A stretch of DNA of 64,000 nucleotides from the NCBI RefSeq assembly GCF_003058085.1, contig NZ_QBUD01000002.1:310001-374000 (forward strand), written 5' to 3'. Position 1 is the stretch's first letter; each line of letters starts with the position of its first letter. The notes below the pieces were generated by a model. It saw only the letters and a list, made by a program, of their open reading frames with translations. It did no database searches and was not told the origin of the DNA. Shown here piece by piece: positions 15,609-32,296 of this stretch. A program made the position numbers and the translations under genes. Origin of the DNA: Yoonia sediminilitoris. Its GTDB lineage: Bacteria; Pseudomonadota; Alphaproteobacteria; Rhodobacterales; Rhodobacteraceae.

Positions 15609-16603
15609 CCAAACTGGCGACCGAGGCCGGACGCAGTGACTTCTTCCAACTTCTCCGGCGGATCGAGGAAGTGGACGGGCGGCGCTTTGGCCGCGCCGGT
15701 GGCCCTGACAAAGAGCCTGCGCGACTTGGGCAGCACATCCGCTTGTCCTTTGCCACATCCGATGTGGCATCCATGGCGGTTGACGATGACAAAACCCGCG
15801 TTGATGTGAATGTGCTTGGCTTGCTTGGCCCCGAAGGTCCGATGCCGCTGTATCTGACCCGCTGGGTCATGACCCGCCTGTCAAACCGCTGGTTTGCCGG
15901 AAACGCAGGGGGCGTCACTTCTGACACAGCTTTTGTTGATCTGGCCAATACGCTGCAGCACCGGATGATCGCGCTTTACTGGCGGGCATGGGCCGACGCG
16001 CGGGCCGAAGTCCACGTTAGCCAGTCCGGTGGCGGGCCGACCATGGCGATCCTGCGCTCGCTGGCTGGTTTGGGGCTGCCCGGCACCGATAACCCCGCCC
16101 ATGACCCTGCCAAGCTGCGCCATGCGTCTACCCTTGCCCAGCGCGTCAACAGCCCCGAGCGTTTGACCAGCTATCTGTCCGACGTGATCGACGCCCCTGT
16201 CCATCTTGAGGAATTCATCGGCCACTGGATCGATATTCCTGCCGCAGCGCAGACCGGCCTTGGCGGTGCCTATGCCACACTGGGCGGCAGCGCGGTTATT
16301 GGGCCACGCACCTTCAGCCGCCAGAACAAGGCCGAACTGCGGTTGGGGCCGCTTAGCCTCAGGCAATTCCTTGCCTTTCTGGACGATCCCGAAAAGCGCG
16401 CCGCCCTGCGCCATGCCATCCTGTTTGCGGCAGGCCATGACATCGCCTTTGATGTGCGGCTGGTCCTGGCTGCGGCAGACATTACGCCTGCCCGGCTGGG
16501 CGATTGCCGCCTTGGCACAACCGCGTGGATGCAGCCCAAACGCGGACGCGACGCAGATGACGTCGTTCTGACCCAATTCACAGGACAAGAGGTGCACGCA
16601 TGA
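15572..16603 (+). CDS. tssG: T6SS baseplate protein TssG (ImpH/VasB)
   Basis: A 343-residue protein with TssG features: DFFQLLRRIEEVDGRRFGRAGGPDKEPARLGQ, LLGPEGPMPLYLT, a central helical region and the C-terminal RLGPLSLRQFLAFLDD. The ATG at 15572 follows an AGGAGG by seven bases and gives the family start; the open frame extends further upstream inside tssF without family similarity. It is a baseplate wedge component with TssF. Its stop overlaps the FHA gene start (ATGA). Confidence 0.93.
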   Translation: MAAHARQSRDDLTKLATEAGRSDFFQLLRRIEEVDGRRFGRAGGPDKEPARLGQHIRLSFATSDVASMAVDDDKTRVDVNVLGLLGPEGPMPLYLTRWVMTRLSNRWFAGNAGGVTSDTAFVDLANTLQHRMIALYWRAWADARAEVHVSQSGGGPTMAILRSLAGLGLPGTDNPAHDPAKLRHASTLAQRVNSPERLTSYLSDVIDAPVHLEEFIGHWIDIPAAAQTGLGGAYATLGGSAVIGPRTFSRQNKAELRLGPLSLRQFLAFLDDPEKRAALRHAILFAAGHDIAFDVRLVLAAADITPARLGDCRLGTTAWMQPKRGRDADDVVLTQFTGQEVHA

Positions 16604-17946
16604 CCCTTGCCACGATTGTTCTGGAACACTCTCCCTATCCGCAACGGCGGATGACACACGCCTTTGCAGGCGGCACATTGGTTATCGGGCGCGGTGATAC
16701 CGCCGACTGGGAGCTTGATGACCCCGACCAGTTCCTGAGCCGCAAACATTGCATCATTGCCGAACAGGGCGGACAGGTCATCCTGACCGACGCCAGCAGG
16801 GCAGGTACATTCGTTGACGGGTCAGAAACCGCCCTTGGCACTGGCGAAAGCGTGACGTTGGAAGATGGAATGCGCCTGAAGATGGGCGATTTCGTCTTTC
16901 GGGTCGATATGGTCCAAGCGGCCGCTGCGCCATCGACCAAGCCCGCCACCGAAGGCGCTATCGGCGACAGCGGCTTTGTCTGGGCCCCTGCCGACGCCCC
17001 GCGCGAGCCGACCAAGCGCCCCGATACGTTGCCCAAGCCATTTGACCCGTTTGACACCGATGCTCCCGCCCATCAGCCTAAGCAAGAGGAGCGCAAATCG
17101 CCTAAGCCCTTTGGCATGGATGATCCGTTCGAGGCGTTCAATGCAAAGCCAGACGTTGACATCACGCCAGAGCCACCATCCGGTGGCGGTGGCTATTTCG
17201 GCACCCCGATCAACGCACCCATCAGTGAACCAAAAGAAGAGCGCAAGGAACCGCCAAAGCCTGCCTTTGAAACGGCCGCACCGATCTTTGAAAAGCCTCA
17301 GGCAGACCCAGTTGCCGAACCTGTTACCGAGACGCCCCCAACACCACTGCCTGCGGCCAGTGATGCGGCTTTGCGGGCGGCGTTCCTGAACGGTTTGGGG
17401 GTTGATCCCGACCGCCATCCGACAACAGACCCTTTGGCCGACATGGAAGCCATGGGCAGACAGTACCGGTTGCTGGTCGAAGGGGTAATGCACCTGCTGC
17501 GTGCCCGCGCGTCGGCCAAGCAACAGGTCAGGGTGGCGCAAACGCTGGTCTCCAGCGCCAACATGAACCCGCTCAAATTCATGGCGACAACTGATGACGC
17601 CGTTGAAACGCTGATTGGAGAGGACCGGCCCGGTTATCTGTCATCAGACGAAGCCATCACCGGGGCTTACCGCGATCTGATGGACCATCAGATGCGCACA
17701 TGGTCGGCCCTGCAATCGGCGCTGCGCCGGATGATCGACCAGTTCGACCCCAAGACGATCGAGGCCGAAATCGCCGACAGCGGGATGCTGCAATCGCTGC
17801 TGGCAGGCGGCAAAAGCGCCCAACTGTGGCAAGCTTATGAAGAACGATATCGCGATATCGCCAGCGCGGCCGAAGCCCGTTTTCTGGGCGAAGTCGGCGA
17901 AAATTTCCGCGATGCATATGAAGGTAGTGAGGAGAACAAGAGATGA
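16600..17946 (+). CDS. tagH: FHA-domain T6SS regulator (TagH/Fha1 type)
   Basis: A 448-residue protein. An N-terminal FHA domain occupies about residues 25-100 (IGRGDTADWELDD, LSRKHCII, then a GTFVDGS strand), the phosphothreonine-binding fold. A proline- and acid-rich linker of about 160 residues follows. The C-terminal domain (YRLLVEGVMHLLRARASAKQQVRV ... NPLKFM ... AYRDLMDHQMRTWSALQSALRRMIDQF) matches the type VI-specific FHA tail. In characterised systems the kinase phosphorylates this protein to license assembly and the PP2C phosphatase reverses it; both partners are in this locus. Four-base overlaps join it to tssG and tssJ. Confidence 0.92.
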   Translation: MTLATIVLEHSPYPQRRMTHAFAGGTLVIGRGDTADWELDDPDQFLSRKHCIIAEQGGQVILTDASRAGTFVDGSETALGTGESVTLEDGMRLKMGDFVFRVDMVQAAAAPSTKPATEGAIGDSGFVWAPADAPREPTKRPDTLPKPFDPFDTDAPAHQPKQEERKSPKPFGMDDPFEAFNAKPDVDITPEPPSGGGGYFGTPINAPISEPKEERKEPPKPAFETAAPIFEKPQADPVAEPVTETPPTPLPAASDAALRAAFLNGLGVDPDRHPTTDPLADMEAMGRQYRLLVEGVMHLLRARASAKQQVRVAQTLVSSANMNPLKFMATTDDAVETLIGEDRPGYLSSDEAITGAYRDLMDHQMRTWSALQSALRRMIDQFDPKTIEAEIADSGMLQSLLAGGKSAQLWQAYEERYRDIASAAEARFLGEVGENFRDAYEGSEENKR

Positions 17947-18395
17947 GCCTGACACGACGCACAATGATAATCACAGGCGGGAGCGCGCTGACGCTGGCCG
18001 CCTGTGGCGGAGAACCGGGACCCGGACGGGTGAACGTGCAAGCGTCGATGGTGGCGGGGGCCAATCCGGCGCCTGACGGGTCTGACAGGCCACTGATCGT
18101 CAGCATGTTTCAGCTGCGCGGCACCGATGCATTCAGTGCCGCTGATGTGCTGTCATTGCAGGACCCACAGACTGCCCTTGGCGGCGACCTGATCCGTACA
18201 GAACAGATCGTTTTGCCGCCTGCCGGTGCTGCTGCCACGGATTTCCCCATTGAAATGGGGGCTGCGGCGCTTGGTATCGTGGCCGGTTTCCGTGACCCAA
18301 GCGGCAAGACCTTTCGCACCACAATTCCTTTGCCAGCCACGGGCGATGTGCCCCTGACAATCACCGTGTCCTCTTCTGGCATCGCCGTTTCCTAA
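17943..18395 (+). CDS. tssJ: T6SS outer-membrane lipoprotein TssJ
   Basis: A 150-residue lipoprotein with a short lipoprotein signal (lipobox LTLAAC, Cys at about 21). The mature part is a small beta-sandwich (PLIVSMFQLRGTDAFSAADV, then DLIRTEQIVLPPAG), as in TssJ/SciN. TssJ anchors the TssL-TssM envelope complex to the outer membrane. The start ATG overlaps the tagH stop; tssK follows after 15 bases. Confidence 0.9.
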   Translation: MSLTRRTMIITGGSALTLAACGGEPGPGRVNVQASMVAGANPAPDGSDRPLIVSMFQLRGTDAFSAADVLSLQDPQTALGGDLIRTEQIVLPPAGAAATDFPIEMGAAALGIVAGFRDPSGKTFRTTIPLPATGDVPLTITVSSSGIAVS

Positions 18396-18410
18396 GAAAG
18401 TCCGCAATTC

Positions 18411-19745
18411 ATGAGTGATGCAAACAAAGTTGTCTGGTCCGAAGGGCTGTTCCTGCGTCCGCAGCATATGCAGCAGCAGGATCGCCACACCGAAAGCCTC
18501 GTGCGAGGGGCGATGCAGGCAGCCCCGCATCAGAATTTCGGGTTCCGTGACCTGACACTTGATGATGCCGCCATTCAGGCGGGGCAGGTCGGGATGACCT
18601 ATGCCCGTGGCATTTTCCCTGACGGCACCCCTTTTGCGATGCCCGATATGACGACAGGCTTGCAGGCGGTCACAGTGACCGCTGGCACCAAATCGGGACT
18701 TGTCAGCTTTGGAGTGCCTGCGCTCAAGCCCGGTACAGCAACGATTGATCCGCAAAGCGGCGGACTAGCGGGGGGGCGTTACCACGGGCAGATCGACACG
18801 ATCCGCGACACCATCAAGGGCGGCGCGGACGCCGCAGAAATCGAAGTCGCCCGCCTTGCCCCGCGCCTGTTCCTGCCCGGCGAGGCCACAGACGGCTACA
18901 CCGTTCTGCCTGTCGCCCGTATCAATGGCCTGCTGGCTGACGGCTCTGTTGCGATTGACGCTGACTTCCTTGCCCCTTCGTTGGTCACATCCGCTTGCCC
19001 TTGGTACGCAGGTTTCCTGCAAGAGGTGCTGACTGGGCTGGACCGTATCGCGCAGGCCCATGGCGGGATTGTCATGGGGGGCGCAGGGGCATCGGTTGAA
19101 AATCTGCTGATCCTTGAGTTGGCCAACACCGCCCGCCCGCGCATCGCGCATATGATGGCGCAAGACCTGTTTCACCCGTCCGAGCTATTCATGGAGCTTG
19201 CCGGTCTTGCTGGTCGCATGGCCACCTTTGGCAGTTCATCGCGCAGCATGTCAGAATTGCCGGTTTACGAACATAATGACCCGCAGGCAGGTTTTGCCGC
19301 TCTGACTGACACACTGCGGTCGCTCATCCTGTCGCTGCGCCATGTCGAAGTGAAGAACCACCCGCTGAAAGTGGCCCGGCATGACGAAAATGTCTGGACC
19401 GTCCGCATCGACAACACCGATATTATCAACAACAGCCGGATTGTGCTGCGTATCGGTGGCGAGATGTCAGAGGCGATGCTGCGCAAGATCTTTGTCGAAC
19501 AGGCCACTGTGGGGGCCGCGGATGAATTCGATGCGCTCTGGAAATCCAAGCTGACAGGGATTCCGCTCAAGCCGCTCCATTCGCAGCCCCGCGAAATCCC
19601 CTATGATGGCGAAAGGCTGTGCCTTGAACTGGACCGTAATTCCGAACATTGGGCCAAGCTGGCCGATGCGCCCGGCTTTGTGATCGGCGTTGCCGGCAAG
19701 CTGGACAAGGCCCCGCTGATTGACTGCTACGCGGTGAAACGATGA
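18411..19745 (+). CDS. tssK: T6SS baseplate-membrane connector TssK
   Basis: A 444-residue protein with the TssK opening (VVWSEGLFLRPQHMQQQDRHTES), a central PLYEHND-like motif (LPVYEHNDPQAGFAALTDTLRSLI) and the C-terminal LCLELDRNSEHWAKL. TssK trimers bridge the baseplate wedges to the membrane complex. It has normal length and no signal peptide. The stop overlaps the tssL start by four bases. Confidence 0.95.
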   Translation: MSDANKVVWSEGLFLRPQHMQQQDRHTESLVRGAMQAAPHQNFGFRDLTLDDAAIQAGQVGMTYARGIFPDGTPFAMPDMTTGLQAVTVTAGTKSGLVSFGVPALKPGTATIDPQSGGLAGGRYHGQIDTIRDTIKGGADAAEIEVARLAPRLFLPGEATDGYTVLPVARINGLLADGSVAIDADFLAPSLVTSACPWYAGFLQEVLTGLDRIAQAHGGIVMGGAGASVENLLILELANTARPRIAHMMAQDLFHPSELFMELAGLAGRMATFGSSSRSMSELPVYEHNDPQAGFAALTDTLRSLILSLRHVEVKNHPLKVARHDENVWTVRIDNTDIINNSRIVLRIGGEMSEAMLRKIFVEQATVGAADEFDALWKSKLTGIPLKPLHSQPREIPYDGERLCLELDRNSEHWAKLADAPGFVIGVAGKLDKAPLIDCYAVKR

Positions 19746-21085
19746 CAAAGGACGACCCCTTCGGTCTGGAAACAGACCCCGAACGGACCCGCATCCGCCC
19801 GGCCAAAGCGCGGCCCAAGCCGCCGCCTGAAGTGGCCCATGTGGCGGTGGACGCAAGCGCGCGAATGCGCGCCGGGCAAACCAGCGACAACCCGTTGGTC
19901 TCTGCGTTTTCGATCCTGCTGGGGCTGGCCCCGCAGTTGCAATCCGCCCAAGCGGTCGAAAATCCCGAAACCCTGCGCGCACGTTTGCTTGATAACCTCA
20001 ATTACGCGCGTGACAGCGCAGTGTCGTCGGGTATTCCCTTGTCGCGGGCGGATCAGGCGGCGTGGTTTGTGGCGGCGCTGCTGGATGATATCGTGTTGAA
20101 TACACCGTGGGGTGGCCATTCATCATGGCCACGCCAGCCACTTGTCGCCACGCTTTATGGTGATGTTGACGCGGGAGAGAGGTTCTTTGCCCGCACCGAT
20201 GAATTGCTGCGTTACCCTGACCGCGACAAGGATATGCTGGAACTGGTGTTCATCTGCCTGTCGTTCGGCTTTCGGGGTATGCACCGTGTCACTGGCAGCG
20301 CTGGCGATGGGGCACTAGCCCAGTTGCGTGGCCAATTGGCCCGCCAATTGCGCGATCCGCAAGCCGACGCCGCGCCCCTGTCACCGAATTGGCAAGGTGT
20401 TGCCGCGCCGCAGGAAAAGCAGGCTTTTGCCGTGCCATACTGGGCCATGGGCCTGATCGCCGTGGCCGTCATGTTGATGGTCTATGTGGGCCTGTCGATG
20501 CGTTTGTCGGGCAAGTCCGAACAGCTTTATGCACTTGCCGATGTGCTGCCGCCCCCCACAAGGGCCGAGATTTTCCGCCCAGTACGCGATACCGCCCCAG
20601 TGGAAGAAATCGAATTACCAACCGTGTCGCTTGACCTGCTGCCGCTCTTTGCAGAGGCCGCCCCGCCCGATGCGCTGGATGCGCTGACCGGACGCGAGGA
20701 TGTATCGCTGGTGGTCATCGCCATTCAGGCAACCGACCCCGAAGTTTTCAGGTCGGCCAAGGCCGACATCAATGATGAATATCGGGACCTGATCAATGCA
20801 TTGGCACGGGTCATTTTGGAAAATGGCGACGTCATCGGTGGCGTCAGCGTGGTCGGCCATACAGACAGCATCCCGGTGCAACGCTCCAACCCATTTGCGT
20901 CCAACCAGGGGCTGAGCGAGGCACGCGCGAAAGCCGTTGCTGATTTGCTGGTCGCTGCTGGTGTGCCGACGGGTATCGTCACATCATCGGGCAAGGCCGC
21001 CGCTGAGCCAATCGCCGACAATGGCACCCGCGAAGGGCGCGCGCGCAATCGCCGGGTTGAATTGATCATTGCCAAGAGAGTCTGA
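19742..21085 (+). CDS. tssL: T6SS inner-membrane protein TssL with OmpA-like tail
   Basis: A 447-residue protein. The cytoplasmic DotU domain (about 40-190) has SRADQAAWFVAALLDDIVLNTPWG and MLELVFICLSFGFRGMHRV. One membrane helix lies at about 233-254. The periplasmic C-terminal OmpA-type peptidoglycan-binding domain has VSVVGHTDSIPV, LSEARAKAVADLL and RARNRRVEL. It is therefore an extended TssL able to anchor the membrane complex to the cell wall. It partners TssM, encoded four bases downstream. Confidence 0.93.
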   Translation: MTKDDPFGLETDPERTRIRPAKARPKPPPEVAHVAVDASARMRAGQTSDNPLVSAFSILLGLAPQLQSAQAVENPETLRARLLDNLNYARDSAVSSGIPLSRADQAAWFVAALLDDIVLNTPWGGHSSWPRQPLVATLYGDVDAGERFFARTDELLRYPDRDKDMLELVFICLSFGFRGMHRVTGSAGDGALAQLRGQLARQLRDPQADAAPLSPNWQGVAAPQEKQAFAVPYWAMGLIAVAVMLMVYVGLSMRLSGKSEQLYALADVLPPPTRAEIFRPVRDTAPVEEIELPTVSLDLLPLFAEAAPPDALDALTGREDVSLVVIAIQATDPEVFRSAKADINDEYRDLINALARVILENGDVIGGVSVVGHTDSIPVQRSNPFASNQGLSEARAKAVADLLVAAGVPTGIVTSSGKAAAEPIADNGTREGRARNRRVELIIAKRV

Positions 21086-21088
21086 CCT

Positions 21089-24000
21089 ATGCGGATTTTG
21101 AAATCCATCTTCGGCTTTTTGTTTTCGCGGTTCCTTTGGACCCTGATAGGAATCACCCTGCTCTGCGTTCTGATCTGGTTTTACGGGCCGCTGTTCCAGT
21201 TCGGTACCGCGACCCCGCTGGGGTCTGAAATTGCGCGGGTTATCGGTATCGGCCTTATTCTGGTGTTCTGGCTTGTCATGATGCTGATGCGCCAGATCAG
21301 GGCCGCGCGCGCCAACCGGATGTTCGTCAGCGAACTGGCCACCCCTGCCGAGGCAAGCCTGACGCCGGGCGAGGAAAACGTGGCAGAGGTGCAGGATAAA
21401 TTCCTTGGCATCCTTGACCAGATGAAGAAATCCAAGCTGGGGGGGCGTAAATTCCTGCGCGATATGCCGTGGTACGTGATTGTGGGACCACCGGGAACAG
21501 GCAAGACAACCGCGCTCAAGCAGTCGGGTCTGAACTTCCCGATTGATCTGTCCGACGACATCAAAGGCGTTGGAGGGACCCGCAATTGCGACTGGTTCTT
21601 TACCGATGATGTGGTGTTGATCGACACGGCTGGCCGCTATGTCGAACAGCAAAGTGACCCTGATGTGGATTCCACCGAATGGTTCGGCTTTCTGCGTCTG
21701 CTCAAGAAACACCGCGGCAGACGTGCGCTGAACGGCGTTATCCTCACCCTGTCGGTGCAGGAGTTGACCGCGGGCGAAGCGACCCTGCGCGAGCACGGCC
21801 GCCAGATCCGCAAGCGCCTGCAAGAATTGCGCGATGAGTTGGGCATTGACCTGCCCGTCTATCTGCTGATCACCAAGGCCGACCTGATTGCCGGATTTGA
21901 GCCCTTCTTTCACGATATGTCCAACAGCGAACGTGAACAGGTCTGGGGGGCAACCCTGCCTGTGGGTGCGCGTGTTGATACCGATATGGTTGGCCGCGAG
22001 ATGAAAGCCTTGCTGCACGGATTGTCACGGCGCACAACCAACCGTGTCGCCGATGATATCCCTGTTGAGGACCGCGCAGCCGCCTTCCGCTTTCCGGCGC
22101 AACTGGATGCGCTGACCGGCCCGCTCAAGCAATTGATCGAAACGATCTTTGGCGAAAGCCGCTATGAAGATGCGCCGCGTATGCGCGGCTTCTACTTCAC
22201 ATCTGCCACGCAGGAAGGGTCCCCCGTCGATGCGCTGGTCAACAGCATGGCCGCGAACTTTGGCCTGCCGCGTGCGACCACAGCAACGCGCGGCTATGGC
22301 GAAAAGCGGTCATTCTTTTTGCGCAACCTGATGACCGACCTGATCTTTCCAGAGGCTGGACTGGGCACCTTTGACCCTAAAGCAGAGGACCGCCGCCGCT
22401 GGATCTGGCGCGGGTCGCTTGTGGCGGCAACTGTGATCGCGTTGGTCGCCAGCGGCCTGTTCATCGGGTCCTATGTGCAGCAGGCCCGCGCGCTTGCATC
22501 TTACGAGGACGACCTGAGCGGCCTCAATGCGCGCTTGTCCAACATCGCATCACGACAGGCACCAACCGACCCGCTTGATTTGCCCCTGGCGCTTGACGCC
22601 ATTGACGAAGTCGCCCGCGCGGGCGGCGCGGCGCCCGCTGGCTTTCTGGCCGCCATCGGCCCCACAGCCAGCGCCGAGCGGCTCCGCGCGCGTCAGATTG
22701 CCTATGATCGCAGCCTTGATCATATACTGAGCCCACGCATGGTCGCCCTGCTTGAGGCGACGATGTGGCGACGCATCCGCGACCCCGAATATCTGCTGGG
22801 CGCGTTGAAAACCTATCAGATGATGACCGGGCACGCGCCCTTTGATCAGCAGTTCGTTGAAAATTGGTGGGGCGAACAATTGCCGACCTATGCCCCGATT
22901 GACCCGTTCCCCGATCAGGCCGCGATTGACCATCAGGCCGCCGCCATCGCCCATATGGCCACATCGCAAGATCGGTTTGCCGCTGATCCGGCCTTGATCA
23001 CTGCCGCACTGGAAAGCGTCTGCACGATACCGATAAGCCTGCGCGCCTATCGTGCACTGATGAGCGACCCAGAGGTCGCCAACCTGCCCGAATGGGCGCC
23101 AGCAACCTACATGGGCCCCAACGGTGCGCAGACATTCACGCGCCTGTCGGAAAAATCCCTGCGCGTCGGCGTGCCCGGTGCCTTTACCTACAAAGGGTTC
23201 CACGAAGTCGTAGCCCCCCGCGTGCCCGCTGTTGCAGCCCAAGCTGCGGTAGATCGCACGGTGTTTGCCGGTGGCTGTGCGGAAAGTGCGGATGCCTCCG
23301 AAAGCAGTATCGAGGCGGACATCACCAAGCTCTACTATGACGACTTCATCGACAAATGGGACAGCCTGCTGCGTGATTTGCGGATCACCCCGATCAACGA
23401 TCTGCAACAGGCCAGCAACAACATCAAAGACCTGTCGTCGGCGGATTCATCGTTGCAACGCCTGTTAACGGCGGTTGTGCAGGAAACCGACCTGACAAGG
23501 CCCACCGATGCAGAGGTCGCACAGGATGCGGCTGCTTTGGGTTTTCTGGCGGTCGCCCGCAAAAAGGCCGCGACGCTGACCCGAATTGGCAAGAAATCCG
23601 GACTAAGCCAGCGCTTGGGCGGTGCCGCCGCCGAAGCGGCGCTGATCGGTGAACCTGTCGCGCTGCATTTCAAACCGCTCCGCGCGGCCGTGATGGAAGT
23701 GGACGGCGAACCGCCCTTGCTGACCGACACCAATGCAGCCCTTGTGGCCCTGTCCAACGAATTGCAGATCATTATCGCCAGTCCAAACCCGGCGGCGGCG
23801 CTGCTTGCCTCGGGCGGGTTGCCGATATTGACAGGGGCCGTCGCGAACGAGGCGCGCGTGCTGCCAGACCCGATTGATGACTGGGTCGCGGGCATCGCCG
23901 ACGATACTGACGTTGTGACCCGCGACGCGATTGTGGCGCAATTGAACGCGCGCTGGCGCGCCGATGTGCTGCCATTTTGCAATGCCGCCACCAAGGGCCG

Positions 24001-24625
24001 TTATCCGTTTGATAAATCCAGCCGCATTGATGTGAATACACTGGATTTTGACCGGCTGTTCGGCCCGGGCAAGCTGGTAGATACTTTCATCAACGACAGC
24101 CTTGCCGACTATGTGGACACCGACACGCGGCCTTGGCAGTGGCGTGCTGATTTCGGACTGCCACCCGACGCGCTGGCCCCCTTTGAAAATGCACGCGCCA
24201 TTCGGGATGCTTTGTTTGCAGGTGGCGTTGGCCCTGTGATCGGGTTCAACCTGACGCCCCAGGACCTGAGCCCCAATGCATCCCGCGTGACCCTGAACGT
24301 CGATGGCAACAGCCTGAGCTATTTTAATGCCAGCGCCGCTGCCACGCGCATGTCATGGCCGGGTCCGAACGGAACCAATATGATCAACCTGTCGTTTGTG
24401 CCGCTGGATGGCGGGGCAGAGGCGATCAGCACCCAAACCGGAAGTTGGGCGATTCTGCGCCTGATTGATGCGGGGCAACTATCGCCCACAGCACTACCGG
24501 AAGTGTTCAACCTGCGGCTGGCTGCCGGTGGCTATAGCGCCAGCTTCCTGTTGCAAGCCAGCAGCGTGATAAATCCTTTCGACCTGACGATCTTTTCGGG
24601 CTTCAGTTGTCCCGAAGGATTCTAG
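21089..24625 (+). CDS. tssM: T6SS inner-membrane protein TssM (IcmF)
   Basis: A 1178-residue protein of normal length. Two N-terminal membrane helices (about 15-35 and 50-70) precede the cytoplasmic NTPase domain, with Walker A GPPGTGKTT near 132-140 and DTAGRY near 180. A third membrane helix (about 447-467) leads to the large periplasmic part. The end carries GRYPFDKSSRIDVNTLDFDRLFGPGKLV and RPWQWRADF, conserved in the TssM C-terminal domain that contacts TssJ. The Walker motif is intact, so NTP binding is expected. A second, truncated TssM-like gene is present at 27465. Confidence 0.95.
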   Translation: MRILKSIFGFLFSRFLWTLIGITLLCVLIWFYGPLFQFGTATPLGSEIARVIGIGLILVFWLVMMLMRQIRAARANRMFVSELATPAEASLTPGEENVAEVQDKFLGILDQMKKSKLGGRKFLRDMPWYVIVGPPGTGKTTALKQSGLNFPIDLSDDIKGVGGTRNCDWFFTDDVVLIDTAGRYVEQQSDPDVDSTEWFGFLRLLKKHRGRRALNGVILTLSVQELTAGEATLREHGRQIRKRLQELRDELGIDLPVYLLITKADLIAGFEPFFHDMSNSEREQVWGATLPVGARVDTDMVGREMKALLHGLSRRTTNRVADDIPVEDRAAAFRFPAQLDALTGPLKQLIETIFGESRYEDAPRMRGFYFTSATQEGSPVDALVNSMAANFGLPRATTATRGYGEKRSFFLRNLMTDLIFPEAGLGTFDPKAEDRRRWIWRGSLVAATVIALVASGLFIGSYVQQARALASYEDDLSGLNARLSNIASRQAPTDPLDLPLALDAIDEVARAGGAAPAGFLAAIGPTASAERLRARQIAYDRSLDHILSPRMVALLEATMWRRIRDPEYLLGALKTYQMMTGHAPFDQQFVENWWGEQLPTYAPIDPFPDQAAIDHQAAAIAHMATSQDRFAADPALITAALESVCTIPISLRAYRALMSDPEVANLPEWAPATYMGPNGAQTFTRLSEKSLRVGVPGAFTYKGFHEVVAPRVPAVAAQAAVDRTVFAGGCAESADASESSIEADITKLYYDDFIDKWDSLLRDLRITPINDLQQASNNIKDLSSADSSLQRLLTAVVQETDLTRPTDAEVAQDAAALGFLAVARKKAATLTRIGKKSGLSQRLGGAAAEAALIGEPVALHFKPLRAAVMEVDGEPPLLTDTNAALVALSNELQIIIASPNPAAALLASGGLPILTGAVANEARVLPDPIDDWVAGIADDTDVVTRDAIVAQLNARWRADVLPFCNAATKGRYPFDKSSRIDVNTLDFDRLFGPGKLVDTFINDSLADYVDTDTRPWQWRADFGLPPDALAPFENARAIRDALFAGGVGPVIGFNLTPQDLSPNASRVTLNVDGNSLSYFNASAAATRMSWPGPNGTNMINLSFVPLDGGAEAISTQTGSWAILRLIDAGQLSPTALPEVFNLRLAAGGYSASFLLQASSVINPFDLTIFSGFSCPEGF

Positions 24626-24629
24626 AGCC

Positions 24630-25070
24630 ATGGAAAAGGGTCTGTTCGGCAAACTGCCGTCGCATGGTGATTTCATTGCGCGTGGGCTGACGTCACCGCA
24701 ACGGCAGGCGTTGGATCGCTGGCTCACGCAGAATATCGGTCAAATGACCTTGCCCACTGACGGTTTGCGCCTGCGCTGGGCACTTGGCGGTGCGCCGATG
24801 GTCGCCGCGATCATGCCCAGCAAGGACAAGGCCGGGCGTGTGTTCCCGATCATGGCGGTGACCGATGATACAAACGTCAATTGGGCGGACGCAGCTGCCC
24901 ATGTGCTGGCGCATGCCATCGCGGACGGATCGGATGCACAGGCAACCTTTGACGCACTGCCACTGCCAACCGAACCACCCGGCGCGCCGTTCACCGAAGC
25001 GCTGATCTGGCAAAAAGGCAAAACACCGATGCCACTTGCCGCCGCACTACGGACGCTTAGTTCTGGTTGA
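24630..25070 (+). CDS. tagF: T6SS-associated protein TagF (ImpM)
   Basis: A 146-residue protein with the TagF opening (GLFGKLPSHGDFIARGL) and WLTQNI ... RWALGG ... GRVFPIMAV segments. In Pseudomonas TagF is a repressor that holds the system off independently of phosphorylation. This is a single-domain form; some relatives are fused to PppA. It ends the plus-strand arm and its 3' end overlaps the convergent vgrG by 14 bases, so antisense interaction at the transcript ends is possible. Confidence 0.88.
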   Translation: MEKGLFGKLPSHGDFIARGLTSPQRQALDRWLTQNIGQMTLPTDGLRLRWALGGAPMVAAIMPSKDKAGRVFPIMAVTDDTNVNWADAAAHVLAHAIADGSDAQATFDALPLPTEPPGAPFTEALIWQKGKTPMPLAAALRTLSSG

Positions 25071-27369
25071 TCTTGCTGCCTTTCAGAGAGATCTCCCCAC
25101 CGGCCTTGATGTTGATCTTGCCTGATGCGTCAAGGCTGATGTCCTTGCCTTCGATCCCGATCGTCCCGTCTTTTTGCAGCACAATCATCGCGTTGCCGCA
25201 TTTGATCGTAATTTTACTGTCGGCGGCTTCAAGCAGCAGGTTCTTGTTTGACCGGAATGCGGCATCTTCTTCGGCACTGTGGAAACACTTGCCCGTGACC
25301 ATATAGGTGCCTTCGCCCTCGACCCAGAAACTTTGATCACCGCCGATCTTTTCTTCCTGATTTCCCTTAAGCTGCAAGGTCTGCGACCCATTGATCTGGG
25401 TGGTGTCATTGCCCGAAACCGCATGTTTTTGGTAGCCACCCACAGTGACTGCGCGGTAGCCGGCAACGGTCGTAGACTGCCAGCCGCCTACGGCGCGGCT
25501 TTCCACACCGCCGACCTTGTCGCTGCGCAGACCGCCTACTGTGACCTTTTGATCAATCAGCACATATTGGCTGTGTCCTTTCCAGATCTTTTCGTCAGAA
25601 TCCCCGTCGATCGTGATCTCTTCGTTGCCGCCCACATGCAGCGACCGGTTTGCGCCCACCTGCTCGGCATCGTTTTCCCCGATCTGGACCTGCCGGTTTG
25701 CGCCAATCGCTGTCGCCTTGTCATTGGCGACCGTCTCGGTGCGGTCATGGCCGATATGCTGTTCTGCATCATTGCCCACGGACTGGTATGAATCGTTGCC
25801 GATTTCCTCTTTGAAGTCGTGCCCGATAACCCGCCCTTCATCATTCTTGACCAACTCGTTGTGGTCCTTTTGGGCTTGAAAATAGACCTCTTCCGATCCT
25901 GCCTTATCTTCAAACCGCAGTTCGTTGAACCCGCCGCCACCAAGCGAGCTGTCAGATTTCCAGCCCGATTGCGTGGCATTGCCCGGCAGGCCGTAGGGGG
26001 GCATTTGGGCCGCGTTGTAGACCCGGCCGGTAATGATCGGCTGGTCGGGGTCGCCTTCGAGGAAATCGACAATCACCTCTTGTCCGATACGCGGGATCTG
26101 GATGAAGCCATAGCCCGAGCCTGCCCAAACCGAACTGACCCGCACAAAACAGGACGAATTCTCATCCGACGCACCCTGTCTGTCCCAATGAAACTGGACT
26201 TTCACACGGGCATATTCATCGGTGAAAATCTCTTCTCCGCTGGGGCCGACAACCACGGCAGTTTGCGGGCCGCGCATCACCGGTTTCGGGGTGACGCGGG
26301 GTGGGCGGTATTCTTCGGTCGTGGGCGAGAGGTACAAATCAACCTCGAACCCCTCCTCGATCTCTTGGGTCTGGGCAGTATACTGGCCATCCCACATCCG
26401 GTATTGCGTGCGCAATACGGCGTATTCGGCATTCTCTGCTTCGCGCGGGAATTCCGTCAGCGTGAAAAGCACACCACTGTGCAAGCCGCGCACAGTGGCG
26501 CGGGCAGTCGCGCGCCCCACCGGTGATTTGAGCTCTTCCATGCGCACAGCCGCAAGCGCATCGCCGCGGTCAAGCTCGGTATATTTTCCCGGATAATGAT
26601 ACCTTTCAAGATCGCCCAGATCATGTTCGCCGGAGTTTGCAGACTTGGCGACCAGATCGGCAGCGGGTTTGGTAAAGTCATAATCCGTATGCGTGAATTC
26701 GCCGGTGGTCACGGCCGCCTGCCATGCCCAGCGGGTGATGAAATCGCGGTTGTCAAAAGTTGGCGGCAAATCAGGGGCAAAGGGCACCTCTTCATTGCCG
26801 GGCACCGTCGCGAGCCCGCTCAGCGTATCCACAAGCACAAGTGTGTGCATGCCTTCGGCGAACTCGAAGAAGGTAAAGATGCCCTCATGCTCCATCCAGC
26901 GCATCAGAAAATCGAGATCGCTTTCCCCGTATTGCACGCAATAGGGAATGGGCTGATAGGAACCCTGCAACCGTATTTCATATTTCGCGGCAGGATACTC
27001 ACCAAAGATCTCTTCGATGATCTCGACCACGCTCATGTTCTGGAAAATGCGGTTATCCGTGGATTTTGACAAGAACCAGAGCCACGGACGCAGCCGCGCA
27101 TGATAGCGCACCCATTGCCCATTGATTTCCGACAGCCGCAATTCATCGACAAGTCCGTGCAGAAAGACCGGCTCTTCGTCTTCTGACCCGATCTTGATCT
27201 CGATCGCCTGCCCAAGAAGGTCGGGGGCTGCGATGTCGATATCCTCGCTGACCATTTCAAGATCAAAATCGAAACAGCTGCTGATCTGGTCGTGGCCCGT
27301 CATCTGGGAAAACAGCAAAACATCTTCGCCAAGCGGGGTCTTGATCGTTATTTCGCGTCCTGTGGTCAT
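25057..27369 (-). CDS. vgrG: T6SS spike protein VgrG (TssI)
   Basis: A 770-residue VgrG. The N-terminal phage-gp44/gp27-like part opens with ITIKTPLGEDVLLFSQMTGHD and has YCVQYGESDLDFLMRWMEHEGIFTFFEF. The OB-fold has QTAVVVGPSGEEIFTDEYARVKVQFHWDR and SSVWAGSGYGFIQIPRIGQEVIVDFLEGDPDQPIITGRVYN (family landmarks). A long beta-helix with repeating GN/GD turns leads to a strand-rich end (about 720-770) with no added effector domain. It should trimerise and take the DUF4150 tip protein. It is the last gene of the minus-strand operon of phosphatase, peptidase and TssLM-like protein. Confidence 0.95.
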   Translation of the reverse strand: MTTGREITIKTPLGEDVLLFSQMTGHDQISSCFDFDLEMVSEDIDIAAPDLLGQAIEIKIGSEDEEPVFLHGLVDELRLSEINGQWVRYHARLRPWLWFLSKSTDNRIFQNMSVVEIIEEIFGEYPAAKYEIRLQGSYQPIPYCVQYGESDLDFLMRWMEHEGIFTFFEFAEGMHTLVLVDTLSGLATVPGNEEVPFAPDLPPTFDNRDFITRWAWQAAVTTGEFTHTDYDFTKPAADLVAKSANSGEHDLGDLERYHYPGKYTELDRGDALAAVRMEELKSPVGRATARATVRGLHSGVLFTLTEFPREAENAEYAVLRTQYRMWDGQYTAQTQEIEEGFEVDLYLSPTTEEYRPPRVTPKPVMRGPQTAVVVGPSGEEIFTDEYARVKVQFHWDRQGASDENSSCFVRVSSVWAGSGYGFIQIPRIGQEVIVDFLEGDPDQPIITGRVYNAAQMPPYGLPGNATQSGWKSDSSLGGGGFNELRFEDKAGSEEVYFQAQKDHNELVKNDEGRVIGHDFKEEIGNDSYQSVGNDAEQHIGHDRTETVANDKATAIGANRQVQIGENDAEQVGANRSLHVGGNEEITIDGDSDEKIWKGHSQYVLIDQKVTVGGLRSDKVGGVESRAVGGWQSTTVAGYRAVTVGGYQKHAVSGNDTTQINGSQTLQLKGNQEEKIGGDQSFWVEGEGTYMVTGKCFHSAEEDAAFRSNKNLLLEAADSKITIKCGNAMIVLQKDGTIGIEGKDISLDASGKINIKAGGEISLKGSKINQN

Positions 27370-27464: not shown

Positions 27465-29867
27465 TCACAACCGTTCGGGGCATTCGAAATCTCGCATCAG
27501 GTGGCGGACCGAAACGGGGTTTGCGGCGCGCTCGAAGTCCATTTCGACAAACAGCCGACCCGTGTCGTCGCGCATGTCGATCAAAAAGCGTTGTCCGTCG
27601 TCGCGGGGGCGCAGCCGCAGATCATCAAGCAGGCGCAGCATCCCCCAGAAGCCGGGGCGCGTCAGCATCTCGCTGGCCGCGCCGCCCTGAAATCGCAGAC
27701 CAATGCCATCGGCGGGGGCGGGTCCGGGCCACACAAGGCGCGCGGCGGCTGCATTGGCACGCACCGGCACCGACTGCCCCCCAAGCGACAGCGTGGCCTG
27801 CCCGCGTTCTGCCAACGCGCCCACGGTCATATCCGCCTGCAAGCTGTCGCCGGAAAACAACCCTGCATCAACCAGCATCGCAGTTTCAAAAAACGCCGCG
27901 GTTTCAGGGTCCAGCCCGGCAAAGCGTGCTTCGGTTTTCCAGCGCCACGGGCTGGTTTCCATATCAAGGTTGGGTGCGGCGAACTGTTTGAAATAAAGCG
28001 GGATCGCGCCGGTTGGCCCGAACAACTGGCGCAGGTTCGCCGCAGGCAGGTCGCCACCATCGCCAAAAGGGTAGCGCCCGGTCAGGCCACGCACGCATTG
28101 TCCAAACACTTTGGTCCAGCCACGGGTCAGCGGGTTGTCTTGCGCGCCACTGCCTGCACTGATCTGGGCCAGCGTATCCTCGACCAGCCGCGCCACAACT
28201 GCGGGGGCCGCGCGCAATGACTGGATCGACCGCGCCCTGTTTGCAACGCTCGCCATCGCGGTTTCGCCCCGTGCGGCGTCAATATCGCGGGTGGTCAGCG
28301 CCACATTTGCGGTAGCAAAAAGCGCCGCAATCTCGGTCATGCGCCCTTGTTCGACATATTGGATGGCGGGGCCGAAAACCCGCCCGATTTCTGTCTGCAA
28401 GGGCCGTGGCCGCGACCTGTCATTGCCGCCCACCTGTTCCCATGTCTGTTCCAGCAGTTGCGGCAACGGCGACCATTCCTGCGCCAATGTCCCGGACACG
28501 ATGATGGCGGTTTGTGGATTGTCGAAGGGGCGCACGCGCAGATCGGCCAGCCAGTCCTGCCAGAAGACAATGGTTTCTTTCTGCATCCGCGCCATGACCA
28601 GATCAGGGGTGTCATTCTGTTGCGGCAACGGCTGGCCAAACAGCGGCTGCGCCAGTGCCCGTGTTTTCTGCACCGCCACGCCTGCGGCGATGTCGCTGGC
28701 CTGCTGCCATCCTTGCAGCGTGTATAGCCCCGGCACCATCAGCGGATCGCCCGATTTGCGCAGGGCAACCTGATCCAGCAGGGGCACGGCTTCGCCGGCG
28801 TCCCACGAGGGCAGCGCAACCATGTCGGGCGCGCGCAACATTTCGAGCCACGCACGCTCTGCTTCGTTGGTTTGGGCGGCAAAGCCCCGCGCCTGATCCA
28901 GGATCAGCGGATCAAGCGGCGCCAGATCCGTGACCGGACCCGGCAGCAGAACAACATGATCCGCAAAGCCATCCAGATCAAATGTGCCCTCGCGGGCGGC
29001 AACCCAACCGGCCAGAAATTCAGGTTCCCACGCCGTCTGGCCGCTGATGATCCCGTAGGCGCGCAGGCTGTCATACAACGCCAAACCCTGCCCTTCGGTG
29101 GCCAGCGACAGGCTGATGGCCTCTGCAAGAAGCGGGGCTGCGGTTTGCGCCACGGCCTCATGATAGTGATCGGTTGATGCAGCAACAGCATCGGCAAAGG
29201 GCAAGGTGATCATGCCTCGCATAGGCGCCTGCGCTGCCGCGTCTTTCACATGCGTCAAATCCCCGGCCAGCGCATTCAGCGCGGTCACAATATCCGACGA
29301 TTGTGTCAGTCCTGACAGCCTGAGCTTGCTTTCAAATTCGGTGTAAGCGCCCAGCACCTGTTGATGGAACCTGCTTTCAAGATAACTGGCGTAGGCGGCC
29401 AGCCCAAAAACCGCAATCACGAGTGCGCCGATCAGGGCAAGCCCGCTTTTGCTGCGCACAGCCTTCACGGGCTTGGCACCCGACAATTGCGCAAGACAAT
29501 AATCAAGAAACGCTGCCAGATCGGCAAAGTCCGGTCCCTGTTCATGCGCAATTTGCCGGAAGTCGCGGATATCCTGCGCGGTCACATTGCGCCCGTCGAA
29601 CAGGGCCTGGCGTGCAAGCGCCGACCAGACCCCCAGATCAACGCTGCGCTGTGTGCGCACCGCATGATCGGCCAGCGTGCCCAGCGCCAGACGCGCGGGG
29701 CGCGATTGAACAGAGGATACCCCCTGCATTTCGCAGGCTTGGGCAAAGCGCCGCAACCGCACCCCCAATTCATCCGCAAGGCGCGGCAGATCTCGGGTCT
29801 CGGCCTGCGTGATGCCGGCGATGAACCGTTCAAAATCCTTTGCATGATGTGCAAACCGACCAGCCAT
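27465..29867 (-). CDS. TssL-like/TssM-like fusion protein lacking the TssM GTPase
   Basis: An 800-residue inner-membrane protein. Residues about 10-130 are helical and can be aligned with the DotU domain of TssL (RPARLALGTLADHAVRTQ ... VWSALARQALFDG compared with the TssL AWFVAALLDD region). One membrane helix follows at about 141-160. The remainder resembles the periplasmic half of TssM, including GRYPFGDGGDLPAANLRQLFGPTG and SPWRWK near the end. There is no Walker A anywhere. The ATG at 29867 overlaps the peptidase stop (TAATG); an upstream ATG at 29891 is less likely. It sits with PP2C, M15 peptidase and VgrG, so an accessory or alternative membrane-complex subunit is inferred. Confidence 0.75.
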   Translation of the reverse strand: MAGRFAHHAKDFERFIAGITQAETRDLPRLADELGVRLRRFAQACEMQGVSSVQSRPARLALGTLADHAVRTQRSVDLGVWSALARQALFDGRNVTAQDIRDFRQIAHEQGPDFADLAAFLDYCLAQLSGAKPVKAVRSKSGLALIGALVIAVFGLAAYASYLESRFHQQVLGAYTEFESKLRLSGLTQSSDIVTALNALAGDLTHVKDAAAQAPMRGMITLPFADAVAASTDHYHEAVAQTAAPLLAEAISLSLATEGQGLALYDSLRAYGIISGQTAWEPEFLAGWVAAREGTFDLDGFADHVVLLPGPVTDLAPLDPLILDQARGFAAQTNEAERAWLEMLRAPDMVALPSWDAGEAVPLLDQVALRKSGDPLMVPGLYTLQGWQQASDIAAGVAVQKTRALAQPLFGQPLPQQNDTPDLVMARMQKETIVFWQDWLADLRVRPFDNPQTAIIVSGTLAQEWSPLPQLLEQTWEQVGGNDRSRPRPLQTEIGRVFGPAIQYVEQGRMTEIAALFATANVALTTRDIDAARGETAMASVANRARSIQSLRAAPAVVARLVEDTLAQISAGSGAQDNPLTRGWTKVFGQCVRGLTGRYPFGDGGDLPAANLRQLFGPTGAIPLYFKQFAAPNLDMETSPWRWKTEARFAGLDPETAAFFETAMLVDAGLFSGDSLQADMTVGALAERGQATLSLGGQSVPVRANAAAARLVWPGPAPADGIGLRFQGGAASEMLTRPGFWGMLRLLDDLRLRPRDDGQRFLIDMRDDTGRLFVEMDFERAANPVSVRHLMRDFECPERL

Positions 29868-30721
29868 TACAGCAGCCCTTCGCTGGCCCATTTTTGCAGT
29901 GTTTCCACGCCAACTTCAAAATGCATCGAGTCTTCGCGCGAATAGGTCGCCCCCCAGAACCAGCCTTCTTCGTTGAACAATTCGGCAATCAGAAGCAGGC
30001 CAAACTGGGTGCTGCCGTCACCAAACCCGTCAAGCCGCCCTTGCAGTTTCAGGTCAATCGCCGTGCCCCAACTGTGGTTCGAAATCGACGACCGCGACCC
30101 GCGGATCAGACGCACGCAGAGCGCGCCAGCGGTCCCGATAGAGGCATAGATATCCGGCTCTTGGTCTTGCAGCTTGCGCATGATCCGTTCAAGCGAGTCC
30201 AGGGCGGGCTTGATCATCGTGACCCGTATCGGGCCGATCTGGCGCGTTTCCATCAACGCCTTGAGGCTGGGGTTTGTCACGCTTTGGCAATCGGTCCCGT
30301 ACTGCGCGCGCGGCTGGCCCAGAACCTCGCGCATCACGCGGTTGCGCGGCTGCGTGATCCCGCCGTTGAAGCGGCTCGTTGTCAGGATCATTTCTTCGGT
30401 CATGGCGACCGTATCATCATGTTCGAAAATCTCGTCCACATCTGACGGGCCGCTGCGAATGACCGTGCTGGCAGGCTCTGTCGGGGCGGCGGCAAGGGCC
30501 GCACGCAACGCCGTGACCTCTGCTTTGGCTTGGGCAAGGGCGGCTTCGGCTTCGGCCTGGTCTGCGCGGGCGGCGCGCAGTTCCACTTCGGCGCGGTTCA
30601 GCCGGACCAGTGCGCCTCCATCCTCGACCTGCAAAAGCGCGCCAACAACTGCAAACCCCAGCCCCGAGATCACCAATCCAATTGCGATAATGATCGGCCC
30701 GACAAGATTTGGCCCACGCAT
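29867..30721 (-). CDS. Membrane-anchored M15-type peptidoglycan peptidase
   Basis: A 284-residue protein. An N-terminal membrane helix (about 7-30) and an alanine/glutamate-rich coiled coil (38-78) precede a periplasmic M15 (VanY/D-Ala-D-Ala carboxypeptidase-like) domain. The zinc site is visible: SNHSWGTAID gives His216 and Asp223, and the later SREDSMHFE gives Asp264 and His267. Such enzymes cut peptide cross-links. Acinetobacter TagX is a functional parallel: a T6SS peptidoglycan hydrolase that opens the wall for the apparatus. The gene lies four bases after the phosphatase gene and overlaps the TssLM-like gene, which supports a T6SS wall-remodelling role (inferred). Confidence 0.82.
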   Translation of the reverse strand: MRGPNLVGPIIIAIGLVISGLGFAVVGALLQVEDGGALVRLNRAEVELRAARADQAEAEAALAQAKAEVTALRAALAAAPTEPASTVIRSGPSDVDEIFEHDDTVAMTEEMILTTSRFNGGITQPRNRVMREVLGQPRAQYGTDCQSVTNPSLKALMETRQIGPIRVTMIKPALDSLERIMRKLQDQEPDIYASIGTAGALCVRLIRGSRSSISNHSWGTAIDLKLQGRLDGFGDGSTQFGLLLIAELFNEEGWFWGATYSREDSMHFEVGVETLQKWASEGLL

Positions 30722-30724
30722 GGC

Positions 30725-31459
30725 TTATCCCTTTGCCGCCGATACGATAATCAAAGACACATTATCTGGCGCACCGAGATCCAACGTGCGTTGCACCAGT
30801 TCAGACGCGATCTCGTCCAGATCGGCCTGCTTTTCCATAATCTGCGCAATGTCGGCGTCGGTCAGACAGGCGGTAAGCCCGTCACTGCACAGCAAAATGC
30901 GGTCGCCGTCGCGCATCGGCAAAGTGGCAAATGATACATCAACCGTTGGCCCTACCCCCAAGGCCCGCGTAACGATATTGCGGTCTGGGTGGTGGCGCGC
31001 GTCTTCCTTGGAAATAAGGCCGCCGTCGATCATTTCCTGCACAACGGAATGATCCTTGGAAAGCTGGCTCAGCCTGCCATCGCGCAGCAGATAAATCCGA
31101 CTGTCGCCGACCCAAGCCAGATGAGCGACATCGCCCAAGATCATCGACGCAACGATGGTCGTTCCCATGGTCTGACCAGCACGTCGGGCGCGGTCATAGA
31201 TTTCGGCGTTTGCGGCTGTGATTTGTTGCTCCAGTCGCGCCTCTGGCTGATCCGCGTCCTCAATCAGGGTCAGGTTGTCGATGACGATAGACGCCGCCAC
31301 ATCGCCGTGACCATAACCGCCCATTCCGTCCGCAACGGCCCACAACTCTCCGGTCGGGTCCAGCAAAATCGCGTCTTCGTTGCGTTCGCGGACATGGCCG
31401 ACATGCGTCATGCCGGAGCCCTGAATATGAAGTGAATTTTCAAGATTGGGCGTGGTCAT
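30725..31459 (-). CDS. pppA: T6SS PP2C-type Ser/Thr phosphatase (PppA/Stp)
   Basis: A 244-residue PP2C phosphatase with the metal-binding motifs in order: VRERNEDAILLD, VADGMGGYGHGDVAAS, AWVGDSRIYLLRDG, ILLCSDGLTACL and DNVSLIIV near the end. It is soluble and should dephosphorylate the targets of the locus kinase, most likely the FHA protein. The ATG at 31459 is chosen; an in-frame TTG at 31489 would add ten residues. It heads the minus-strand operon ending in vgrG and diverges from the OmpA-like gene at 31610. Confidence 0.9.
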   Translation of the reverse strand: MTTPNLENSLHIQGSGMTHVGHVRERNEDAILLDPTGELWAVADGMGGYGHGDVAASIVIDNLTLIEDADQPEARLEQQITAANAEIYDRARRAGQTMGTTIVASMILGDVAHLAWVGDSRIYLLRDGRLSQLSKDHSVVQEMIDGGLISKEDARHHPDRNIVTRALGVGPTVDVSFATLPMRDGDRILLCSDGLTACLTDADIAQIMEKQADLDEIASELVQRTLDLGAPDNVSLIIVSAAKG

Positions 31460-31543
31460 TCCGGGCTGCCCATATGGTCCGGGCAGCAATGATGCGGGTA
31501 CAAATCAAACCTTTGCATATCAATCCAACGTGTGTGCTATGCG

Positions 31544-31572: not shown

Positions 31573-31609
31573 CTTACTTTATACTAACCTTTTTCAATTG
31601 GTGATTTAC

Positions 31610-32296
31610 ATGCGGATTTTTGCTCTTGCGGCCATAGCCTTTGCATCCTTCGCGGGACTGTCCCACGCTCAGGAATTGAACGATGACGAATTGCTTTCAT
31701 TGTTCGAAGCGCAGCGCGACGCGTTCCGGGAAGCCGAAAGTGAGGGCACATTGAAGACCCGCAGTCTGACGCTTGTCACCGTTGATAATGTGCAGGCACC
31801 GGATCAGGCTGACCTGCCGACCCCTGAAACACCTGTTGCCAATGATGACCTCGCCCCGCTGACCCCCTTGGCCAGCGGCAGCACCGTCACAGCACAGTCT
31901 GCCCCGGAACTCGCCACCCCGGCGGGCGAAGAAACGGTGGTTTTCGCACGGCTTGACCCCGCGCTACAGGTCAATCTGGATATCAAGTTTGCCTATGATT
32001 CCGCCGCCATTGACGCCAGCCAGCGCCCTACGTTGGACCGCATGTGCAATGTGATGAAGAACAGCGACATCGCCGTTTTCCAGATCGTCGGACATACCGA
32101 TGCGGCGGGCTCTGACGCTTATAACGAACGGCTGTCACGTCTGCGCGCTGAAGAAGTCAGCCGCTATCTGGTGAGCAGTTGCGCGATCTCTCCCTCCCGG
32201 TTGAGCACGCTGGGCATGGGCGAACGGTTTCCTGCCAATGCGGACAATCCGCGCGCGGATGAAAACCGTCGGGTCGAGTTTCAGGCGCTGAGTTGA
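31610..32296 (+). CDS. OmpA-family periplasmic/outer-membrane protein
   Basis: A 228-residue exported protein. The signal peptide MRIFALAAIAFASFAGLSHA has an Ala-X-Ala-like cut and no lipobox. A low-complexity Pro/Thr/Ala linker is followed by an OmpA C-terminal peptidoglycan-binding domain (FAYDSAAID, FQIVGHTDAAGSDAYNERLSRLRAEEV, ADENRRVEF). The ATG at 31610 begins the signal peptide; an in-frame GTG at 31601 would only lengthen it. It sits between the T6SS phosphatase operon and the TPS operon and could serve either or neither. A candidate promoter lies just upstream. Confidence 0.85.
   Translation: MRIFALAAIAFASFAGLSHAQELNDDELLSLFEAQRDAFREAESEGTLKTRSLTLVTVDNVQAPDQADLPTPETPVANDDLAPLTPLASGSTVTAQSAPELATPAGEETVVFARLDPALQVNLDIKFAYDSAAIDASQRPTLDRMCNVMKNSDIAVFQIVGHTDAAGSDAYNERLSRLRAEEVSRYLVSSCAISPSRLSTLGMGERFPANADNPRADENRRVEFQALS

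Follow-up and report, generated by a model that had tools for sequence, protein, structure and literature searches.

The 64,000 nt stretch of the Yoonia sediminilitoris genome considered here (contig NZ_QBUD01000002.1, positions 310,001 to 374,000; hereafter the window) contains, near a complete set of type VI secretion system (T6SS) membrane-complex genes, a gene whose product combines parts of two such proteins, TssL and TssM. This hybrid consists of a DotU head, as in TssL, one membrane helix and the periplasmic arm of TssM (IcmF), without the nucleoside triphosphatase (NTPase) domain. We lean towards a role for the hybrid as an accessory membrane-complex subunit in one alphaproteobacterial T6SS lineage, where, judging from the sequences and predicted models, it would couple a co-encoded M15 metallopeptidase to the complex.

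A DotU head and a TssM arm in one polypeptide

The hybrid gene is one uninterrupted frame of 800 codons, in agreement with the initial annotation, which had been made from the letters alone and had proposed an 800-residue protein with a DotU-like front, one membrane helix, a TssM-type periplasmic end and no Walker A motif, near a complete tssL-tssM pair. The longest open reading frame begins at an ATG at 29891 (808 aa), but the start at 29867 is likelier because its ATG overlaps the stop codon of the M15 gene (TAATG) and the sequence GAAGGG ends 8 nt before it. Residue numbers of the hybrid are those of the 808-aa form; subtracting 8 gives the 800-aa form.

The similarity of the remainder of the protein to the periplasmic region of TssM was recovered by Pfam, profile and fold comparisons alike. 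Pfam IcmF-related (E = 1.5e-29, 103.9 bits) and IcmF_C (E = 1.1e-11, 45.3 bits) both match above the Pfam cut-offs, and a TssM profile matches over the periplasmic region with E = 4.3e-37, while the NCBIfam TssM equivalog reaches 165.8 bits, under its cut-off of 388.15. With the predicted full-length model (predicted local distance difference test, pLDDT, 90.0; predicted template-modelling score, pTM, 0.72), Foldseek retrieves the TssM structures 6ixh (E = 6.4e-13), 4y7m, 6hs7 and 4y7o and, in the same chain, more weakly (E = 0.13 and up), TssL structures. Similarly, a profile search of the PDB returns TssM (E = 1.3e-11) and then weak matches to the DotU/TssL structures 6y4r (0.086) and 4v3i (0.97), between which a designed protein (0.65) is ranked.

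Relatives of the hybrid were collected by scanning 84,980 species genomes with an alignment of 14 rows (A1), from which loci L018 and L021 were left out for their broken frames; the best 80 of the 83 relatives represent 74 loci, and this list depends on two peptide patterns. A single-sequence scan of the same contigs returned no relatives. Five loci offer no usable frame (L103, L106 and L114 at a contig end, L104 and L112 broken). Alignment A2 comprises 50 of the 69 usable frames and the window protein (51 members); omitted were L121, as a probable chimera, L088, whose frame is suspect, L083, whose start is uncertain, and 16 others taken for near relatives of retained rows without a measured cut-off. 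Alignment A3 (47 rows) is A2 minus L089, L095, L097 and L120.

A motif search found no Walker A in the window hybrid, and among the 51 family members there is one chance match only (L086, residue 602 of 830), whereas the motif is present in 49 of the 50 TssM rows taken from these loci, including the window TssM (GPPGTGKT). Neither PF14331 (IcmF-related_N, the cytoplasmic NTPase-type domain) nor an OmpA-type peptidoglycan-binding domain has a Pfam match in the hybrid.

The likeness of the first 135 or so residues to DotU, previously aligned by eye, was found by both profile and fold, with the qualification that the domain is incomplete. In the whole window protein, the Pfam DotU match (residues 24-134) is sub-threshold at E = 0.0062 and the NCBIfam DotU/TssL model gives E = 0.0022, while the first 138 residues taken alone reach E = 4e-4 (20.5 bits against a cut-off of 27). 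The DotU claim rests on the following three lines of evidence. When members were scanned singly against Pfam DotU (E up to 1), 46 of 47 matched, as did all 10 of a further set (L089, L095, L097, L120 and six more; E from 2.7e-9 to 0.0055), i.e., 56 of 57 in total (best 2.7e-9), although several of those ten matches cover only about the first 60 profile positions; the NCBIfam model matches 43 of the 47 (best 4.2e-8). A profile-profile comparison of the hybrid with 36 mostly diverse TssL rows gave a probability of 96.3% and a score of 65.3 over 128 columns; the best of 200 shuffles of the columns reached 18.7 and the profile read backwards 15.2. Finally, when the first 138 residues were modelled with AlphaFold2 (pLDDT 93.4, pTM 0.87), the nine top-ranked Foldseek rows were chains of 6y4r and 3u66, both titled TssL, and of 7thw, with a template-modelling (TM) score of 0.71 and a root-mean-square deviation of 2.9 Å against 6y4r; the V. 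cholerae TssL 4v3i comes next (TM 0.72). Foldseek probabilities reach 1.00, but the best E-value is weak (0.095). The entry 7thw is titled putative OmpA-family protein; the window TssL matches it weakly by sequence (E = 0.027) and we take it to be a long TssL.

Hydropathy of the hybrid peaks at 150-168, with the strongest peaks all within 149-169, and the full-length model contains a single membrane helix (149-192), which corresponds to the helix placed at about 141-160 in the 800-aa numbering by the initial annotation, compared with three hydrophobic regions in the window TssM. The helix of the hybrid lines up with the third helix of TssM (window TssM residues 441-463). Alignment to TssM gives E = 4.4e-4 for hybrid residues 140-300 and 2.4e-15 for 130-500, while residues 136-260 alone give no significant match. 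Hence the membrane helix of the hybrid aligns with one of TssM's, rather than being TssL's.

Losses, origin and conservation of the hybrid

The TssL match in the hybrid stops just short of the GFxGxYR stretch and of the helix that follows, so that the DotU part is incomplete. In the window TssL, this stretch includes Gly176, Phe177, Gly179 and Arg182, which are conserved in 33, 32, 35 and 29 of 36 TssL rows, respectively. Of the acidic pair Asp115-Asp/Glu116 of TssL, the hybrid retains the first residue as Asp75 (49 of 51 members), followed mostly by Gln, Ala or His, and the second acidic residue is thus lost. Trp89, present in 51 of 51 members, corresponds to Trp129 of TssL (34 of 36 rows).

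A TssL-like Arg-Thr-Val/Ala-x tail precedes DotU in 6 of 51 hybrid members and in 41 of 49 TssL rows from hybrid loci. In A. tumefaciens, Thr14 of TssL is phosphorylated and bound by Fha, according to the available sections of PMC3953482, and by analogy the six hybrids plausibly keep a remnant of such a phosphorylated tail. The six are L075, L078, L107, L110, L113 and L115; L105 begins with a related Thr-Val-Val-Arg-Pro, and the window hybrid has neither motif.

The simplest origin suggested by the sequences would be a duplicated tssL-tssM pair joined by one internal deletion. Because the two genes adjoin in that order, one deletion would yield the hybrid by removing the last part of tssL together with the NTPase-encoding first part of tssM. 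The hybrid most likely arose once.

The hybrid is confined to few genomes: 3 of 56 in the genus of the window (its own included), 10 of 394 in the family (two in broken frames), 1 of 385 in the class sample (the window's own only) and 2 of 398 in the phylum sample. All but one of the 74 loci come from Rhodobacterales, from Rhizobiaceae or from alphaproteobacterial records with a less exact name. Among the plasmids of PLSDB, 38 records contain a stretch covering at least 80% of the hybrid, at an identity of 45.6% or less, and where annotated these homologs are mostly called "ImcF-related family protein" among the matches listed. The 74th locus (L121:1-3405) is a contig end of a gammaproteobacterial Paraglaciecola metagenome-assembled genome, in which a hybrid fragment (residues about 566-677) continues in frame into an unrelated protein, phage-like by eye; it is probably a chimeric assembly.

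The ratio of nonsynonymous to synonymous substitution rates (dN/dS) is 0.095-0.182 for the hybrid in nine ortholog pairs and 0.05-0.45 for the DotU part alone in seven. The gene is therefore not decaying, and both of its parts are under purifying selection. In trees of the periplasmic part, the hybrids form one clade (Shimodaira-Hasegawa-like approximate likelihood ratio test, SH-aLRT, 100; 36 rows) and the TssM proteins of hybrid-bearing clusters another (SH-aLRT 100; 29 rows), which has a long stem branch and contains none of the 32 TssM rows (a few of them identical) from genomes without a detected hybrid. L007, L037 and L088 were dropped from the second tree, L007 being a TssM in view of its 1242-aa frame. 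In a mirror-tree comparison of 28 pairs, hybrid distances correlate with TssM distances (r 0.83, a value that none of 2000 permutations reached), and the slope is about 1.5 in the hybrid's favour.

The PP2C-M15-hybrid unit and its T6SS cluster

In the window, the full tssJ, tssK, tssL and tssM set mentioned in part by the initial annotation lies at 17943-24625, and with tagH and tagF the cluster extends over 16600-25070 (Table 1).

Table 1. Features of the window bearing on the hybrid gene (residues in the 808-aa numbering).
Feature	Coordinates	Strand	Evidence
tssJ	17943..18395	+	
canonical tssL (DotU and OmpA-type domain)	19742..21085	+	
canonical tssM with Walker A	21089..24625	+	
VgrG, downstream of hybrid	25057..27369	-	
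hybrid DotU-TssM gene, 800 aa (808 aa from 29891)	27465..29867	-	frame, domain matches
IcmF_C beta domain, residues 697-787	27531..27803	-	
IcmF-related (TssM periplasmic) domain, residues 204-487	28431..29282	-	
single membrane helix, residues about 149-168, aligned to third TssM helix	29388..29447	-	
DotU (TssL cytoplasmic) domain, residues 23-134; DotU profile 12-124 of 205	29490..29825	-	
M15 (PF13539) metallopeptidase, TagX-like, N-terminal hydrophobic segment; stop overlaps hybrid start	29867..30721	-	
PP2C phosphatase, first gene of unit	30725..31489	-	
OmpA-family protein, divergent	31598..32296	+	

The hybrid gene is a member of a fixed PP2C-M15-hybrid unit. PP2C and M15 genes lie upstream of the hybrid on the same strand, with a divergent OmpA gene, in all 70 informative loci (70 of 73, the three others ending at a contig end). 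The M15 start is at most 92 nt from the PP2C stop in 70 of 70 loci, and an in-frame hybrid start is found at most 60 nt from the M15 stop in 68; in L088 this distance is 84 nt, and in L104 the frame is broken. VgrG is found downstream of the hybrid in 52 of the 70 loci; the 18 without an adjoining VgrG are rhizobial or from Amaricoccus and retain the unit. Two rhizobial plasmids examined further both carry tssJ, tssK, tssL, tssM, tagF and tagH.

The M15 protein matches PF13539 (E = 1.9e-12), and the three strongest of its hydropathy windows begin at residues 10-12; TagX has two predicted membrane segments and L,D-endopeptidase activity. His216, Asp223 and His267 are invariant in 75 of 75 rows and are presumably the metal ligands, as in the LAS family. 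Among the 394 genomes of the family, M15 homologs with at least 54% identity occur in exactly the 10 that bear the hybrid. TssJ was detected in 10 of 10 hybrid-bearing versus 4 of 70 hybrid-lacking T6SS genomes, although an undetected TssJ may instead reflect divergence. Overall, 66 of 80 Rhodobacteraceae T6SS genomes tested had no TssJ detectable by TIGR03352; at one locus, L156, tagH runs directly into tssK.

Other genes adjoin the cluster. A two-partner secretion (TPS) pair with overlapping frames, a ShlB/FhaC-type protein and a 1466-aa TPS-domain protein, lies at 32392-38410, and TpsB-like genes are found at the corresponding position in several loci from Paracoccus (e.g., L042, L051 and L117). 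A caspase-domain (Peptidase_C14) protein with Sel1 repeats follows at 38432-40357, and its homologs are also found near the hybrid-lacking T6SS clusters L156-L158, L160 and L161. The region 1157-4316 encodes a PAAR-like protein, then a protein of 341 aa that matches no Pfam family, and a DUF2169 protein. Rhizobial clusters show the same three-gene order, with the middle gene annotated as 3-oxoacyl-ACP synthase; Acinetobacter TsmK is a pseudo-ketoacyl synthase.

Proposed role and relation to known systems

By the topology of its parent families, the hybrid would sit in the inner membrane by its one helix. Its DotU head would point into the cytoplasm, towards TssL and the baseplate side with TssK, and its TssM-type arm would lie in the periplasm, where the C-terminal domain would meet TssJ as in TssM. 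It would probably join the TssJLM complex next to TssM through this arm, adding TssM-like arms without an NTPase, and probably couple or position the co-encoded putative M15 peptidoglycan hydrolase at the assembling complex. This coupling is suggested by two precedents. In enteroaggregative Escherichia coli (EAEC), the complex recruits MltE, which the C-terminal domain of TssM stimulates, as outlined in the accessible part of a review (PMC10433429), and Acinetobacter TagX is needed for T6SS and binds TssM and TsmK, as given in excerpts of PMC5061870 and PMC10564176. The mixed or alternative membrane-complex subunit envisaged by the initial annotation is likewise plausible from sequence.

Several observations weigh against an accessory subunit with a DotU head that brings the M15 enzyme. 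When the hybrid was compared with an alignment of TssL rows from Rhodobacterales only, no significant match resulted (0.65% probability, score 18.7), which we attribute to the narrowness of that alignment. TssL-type contacts may be altered, given the loss of GFxGxYR and of the second acidic residue. Weaker M15 homologs (33-49% identity) are found in 65 of 384 hybrid-lacking genomes, and in seven T6SS clusters from such genomes, selected for close placement of M15 and TssM, the M15, OmpA, PP2C and kinase genes all lie near TssM; the hydrolase therefore needs no hybrid in general. In addition, gene linkage and mirror trees are also expected from plain vertical descent of one cluster.

Other roles can be considered. 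The hybrid could replace some TssM copies in the periplasmic ring, with its own DotU domain instead of a separate TssL and without the NTPase. TssM's membrane helix and periplasmic arm are retained in it, all 10 hybrid-bearing genomes tested have TssJ, the EAEC complex holds ten TssM with a TssJ:TssM:TssL ratio of 3:2:2 (PMC10433429, in the portion available), and the long stem of the hybrid-cluster TssM clade looks as if partners had changed. However, the hybrid has no TssM cytoplasmic domain, and in known complexes, as that portion describes them, TssL and TssM contact each other in the membrane and the cytoplasm. Such a mixed ring is rather doubtful. It is unlikely that the hybrid instead limits assembly by competing for the partners of TssL or TssM, under control of the cluster's PP2C and kinase. 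A PP2C gene lies nearby on the same strand, and the Arg-Thr tail of six of the 51 members recalls the phosphorylated Thr14 of A. tumefaciens TssL (PMC3953482, in part), but 45 of 51, the window protein among them, lack this motif in the form searched, and the seven hybrid-lacking clusters also have kinase, PP2C and OmpA genes.

The hybrid might load the adjacent VgrG with its cargo or serve it as an adaptor. VgrG is next to the hybrid in 52 of the 70 informative loci, but the 18 others keep the PP2C-M15-hybrid unit without it; this is very improbable and was rejected as the main role on account of those 18 loci. Least credible is a functionless, decaying by-product of a tssL-tssM duplication. 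The incomplete DotU domain, the missing NTPase and the frames broken in assembly at L018, L021, L104 and L112 would fit decay. Purifying selection in both parts, retention throughout the Rhodobacterales-Rhizobiaceae clade and a well-folded predicted model (pLDDT 90) oppose it, and a pseudogene was rejected on the dN/dS of the whole and of the DotU part and on the clade-wide retention.

An accessory subunit of this kind has partial counterparts. The hybrid shares with TssM the periplasmic arm, the C-terminal beta domain and the equivalent of the third helix, but differs by the missing NTPase and Walker A, by one membrane helix instead of three and by scoring under the equivalog cut-off. It shares with TssL the N-terminal helical domain by profile and fold, but has neither GFxGxYR, the next helix, the TssL membrane helix nor the OmpA-type end, and the second acidic residue is replaced. 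Pseudomonas putida TagP is also a TssM derivative within a T6SS cluster (PMC10433429, in part), in which a peptidoglycan-binding domain replaces the TssM periplasmic end (PMC10433429 and PMC5813230, same limitation to the sections available). The hybrid, compared by description only, appears as the reverse swap, the periplasmic end being kept and the front changed. In Acinetobacter, TagX and TsmK are likewise extra membrane-complex components, and TagX shares the PF13539 domain with the M15 neighbour (PMC5061870 and, for the components, PMC10564176, from the parts accessible). However, TsmK is ketoacyl-synthase-like and goes with the absence of TssJ (excerpts of the same two papers), while the hybrid goes with its presence. 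In Francisella PdpB, IcmF similarity was reported in the C-terminal region (Boyer et al., PMC2660368); a DotU domain is not among the features reported in the available sections of that paper, and the comparison is again by description only. No description of a DotU head on a TssM arm was found in literature titles and abstract openings among the matches listed. As far as these partial sources go, TssM derivatives are already known (TagP) and a DotU head on a TssM arm may be new.

The hybrid bears on how T6SS membrane complexes cross the peptidoglycan and on whether their rings always consist of TssM alone. It is possible, if rather doubtful, that this T6SS lineage has two pillar proteins, an NTPase-bearing TssM and a DotU-TssM hybrid that would act as TssL and TssM at once and bring the hydrolase. 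The hybrid separates a TssL head and a TssM arm from the NTPase in one chain, which makes these functions testable. It is linked with the gene of a probable hydrolase and with systems that have TssJ, and it occurs in tractable, harmless hosts, e.g., Paracoccus denitrificans, whose genome carries the hybrid (L117) with a weak but present DotU match.
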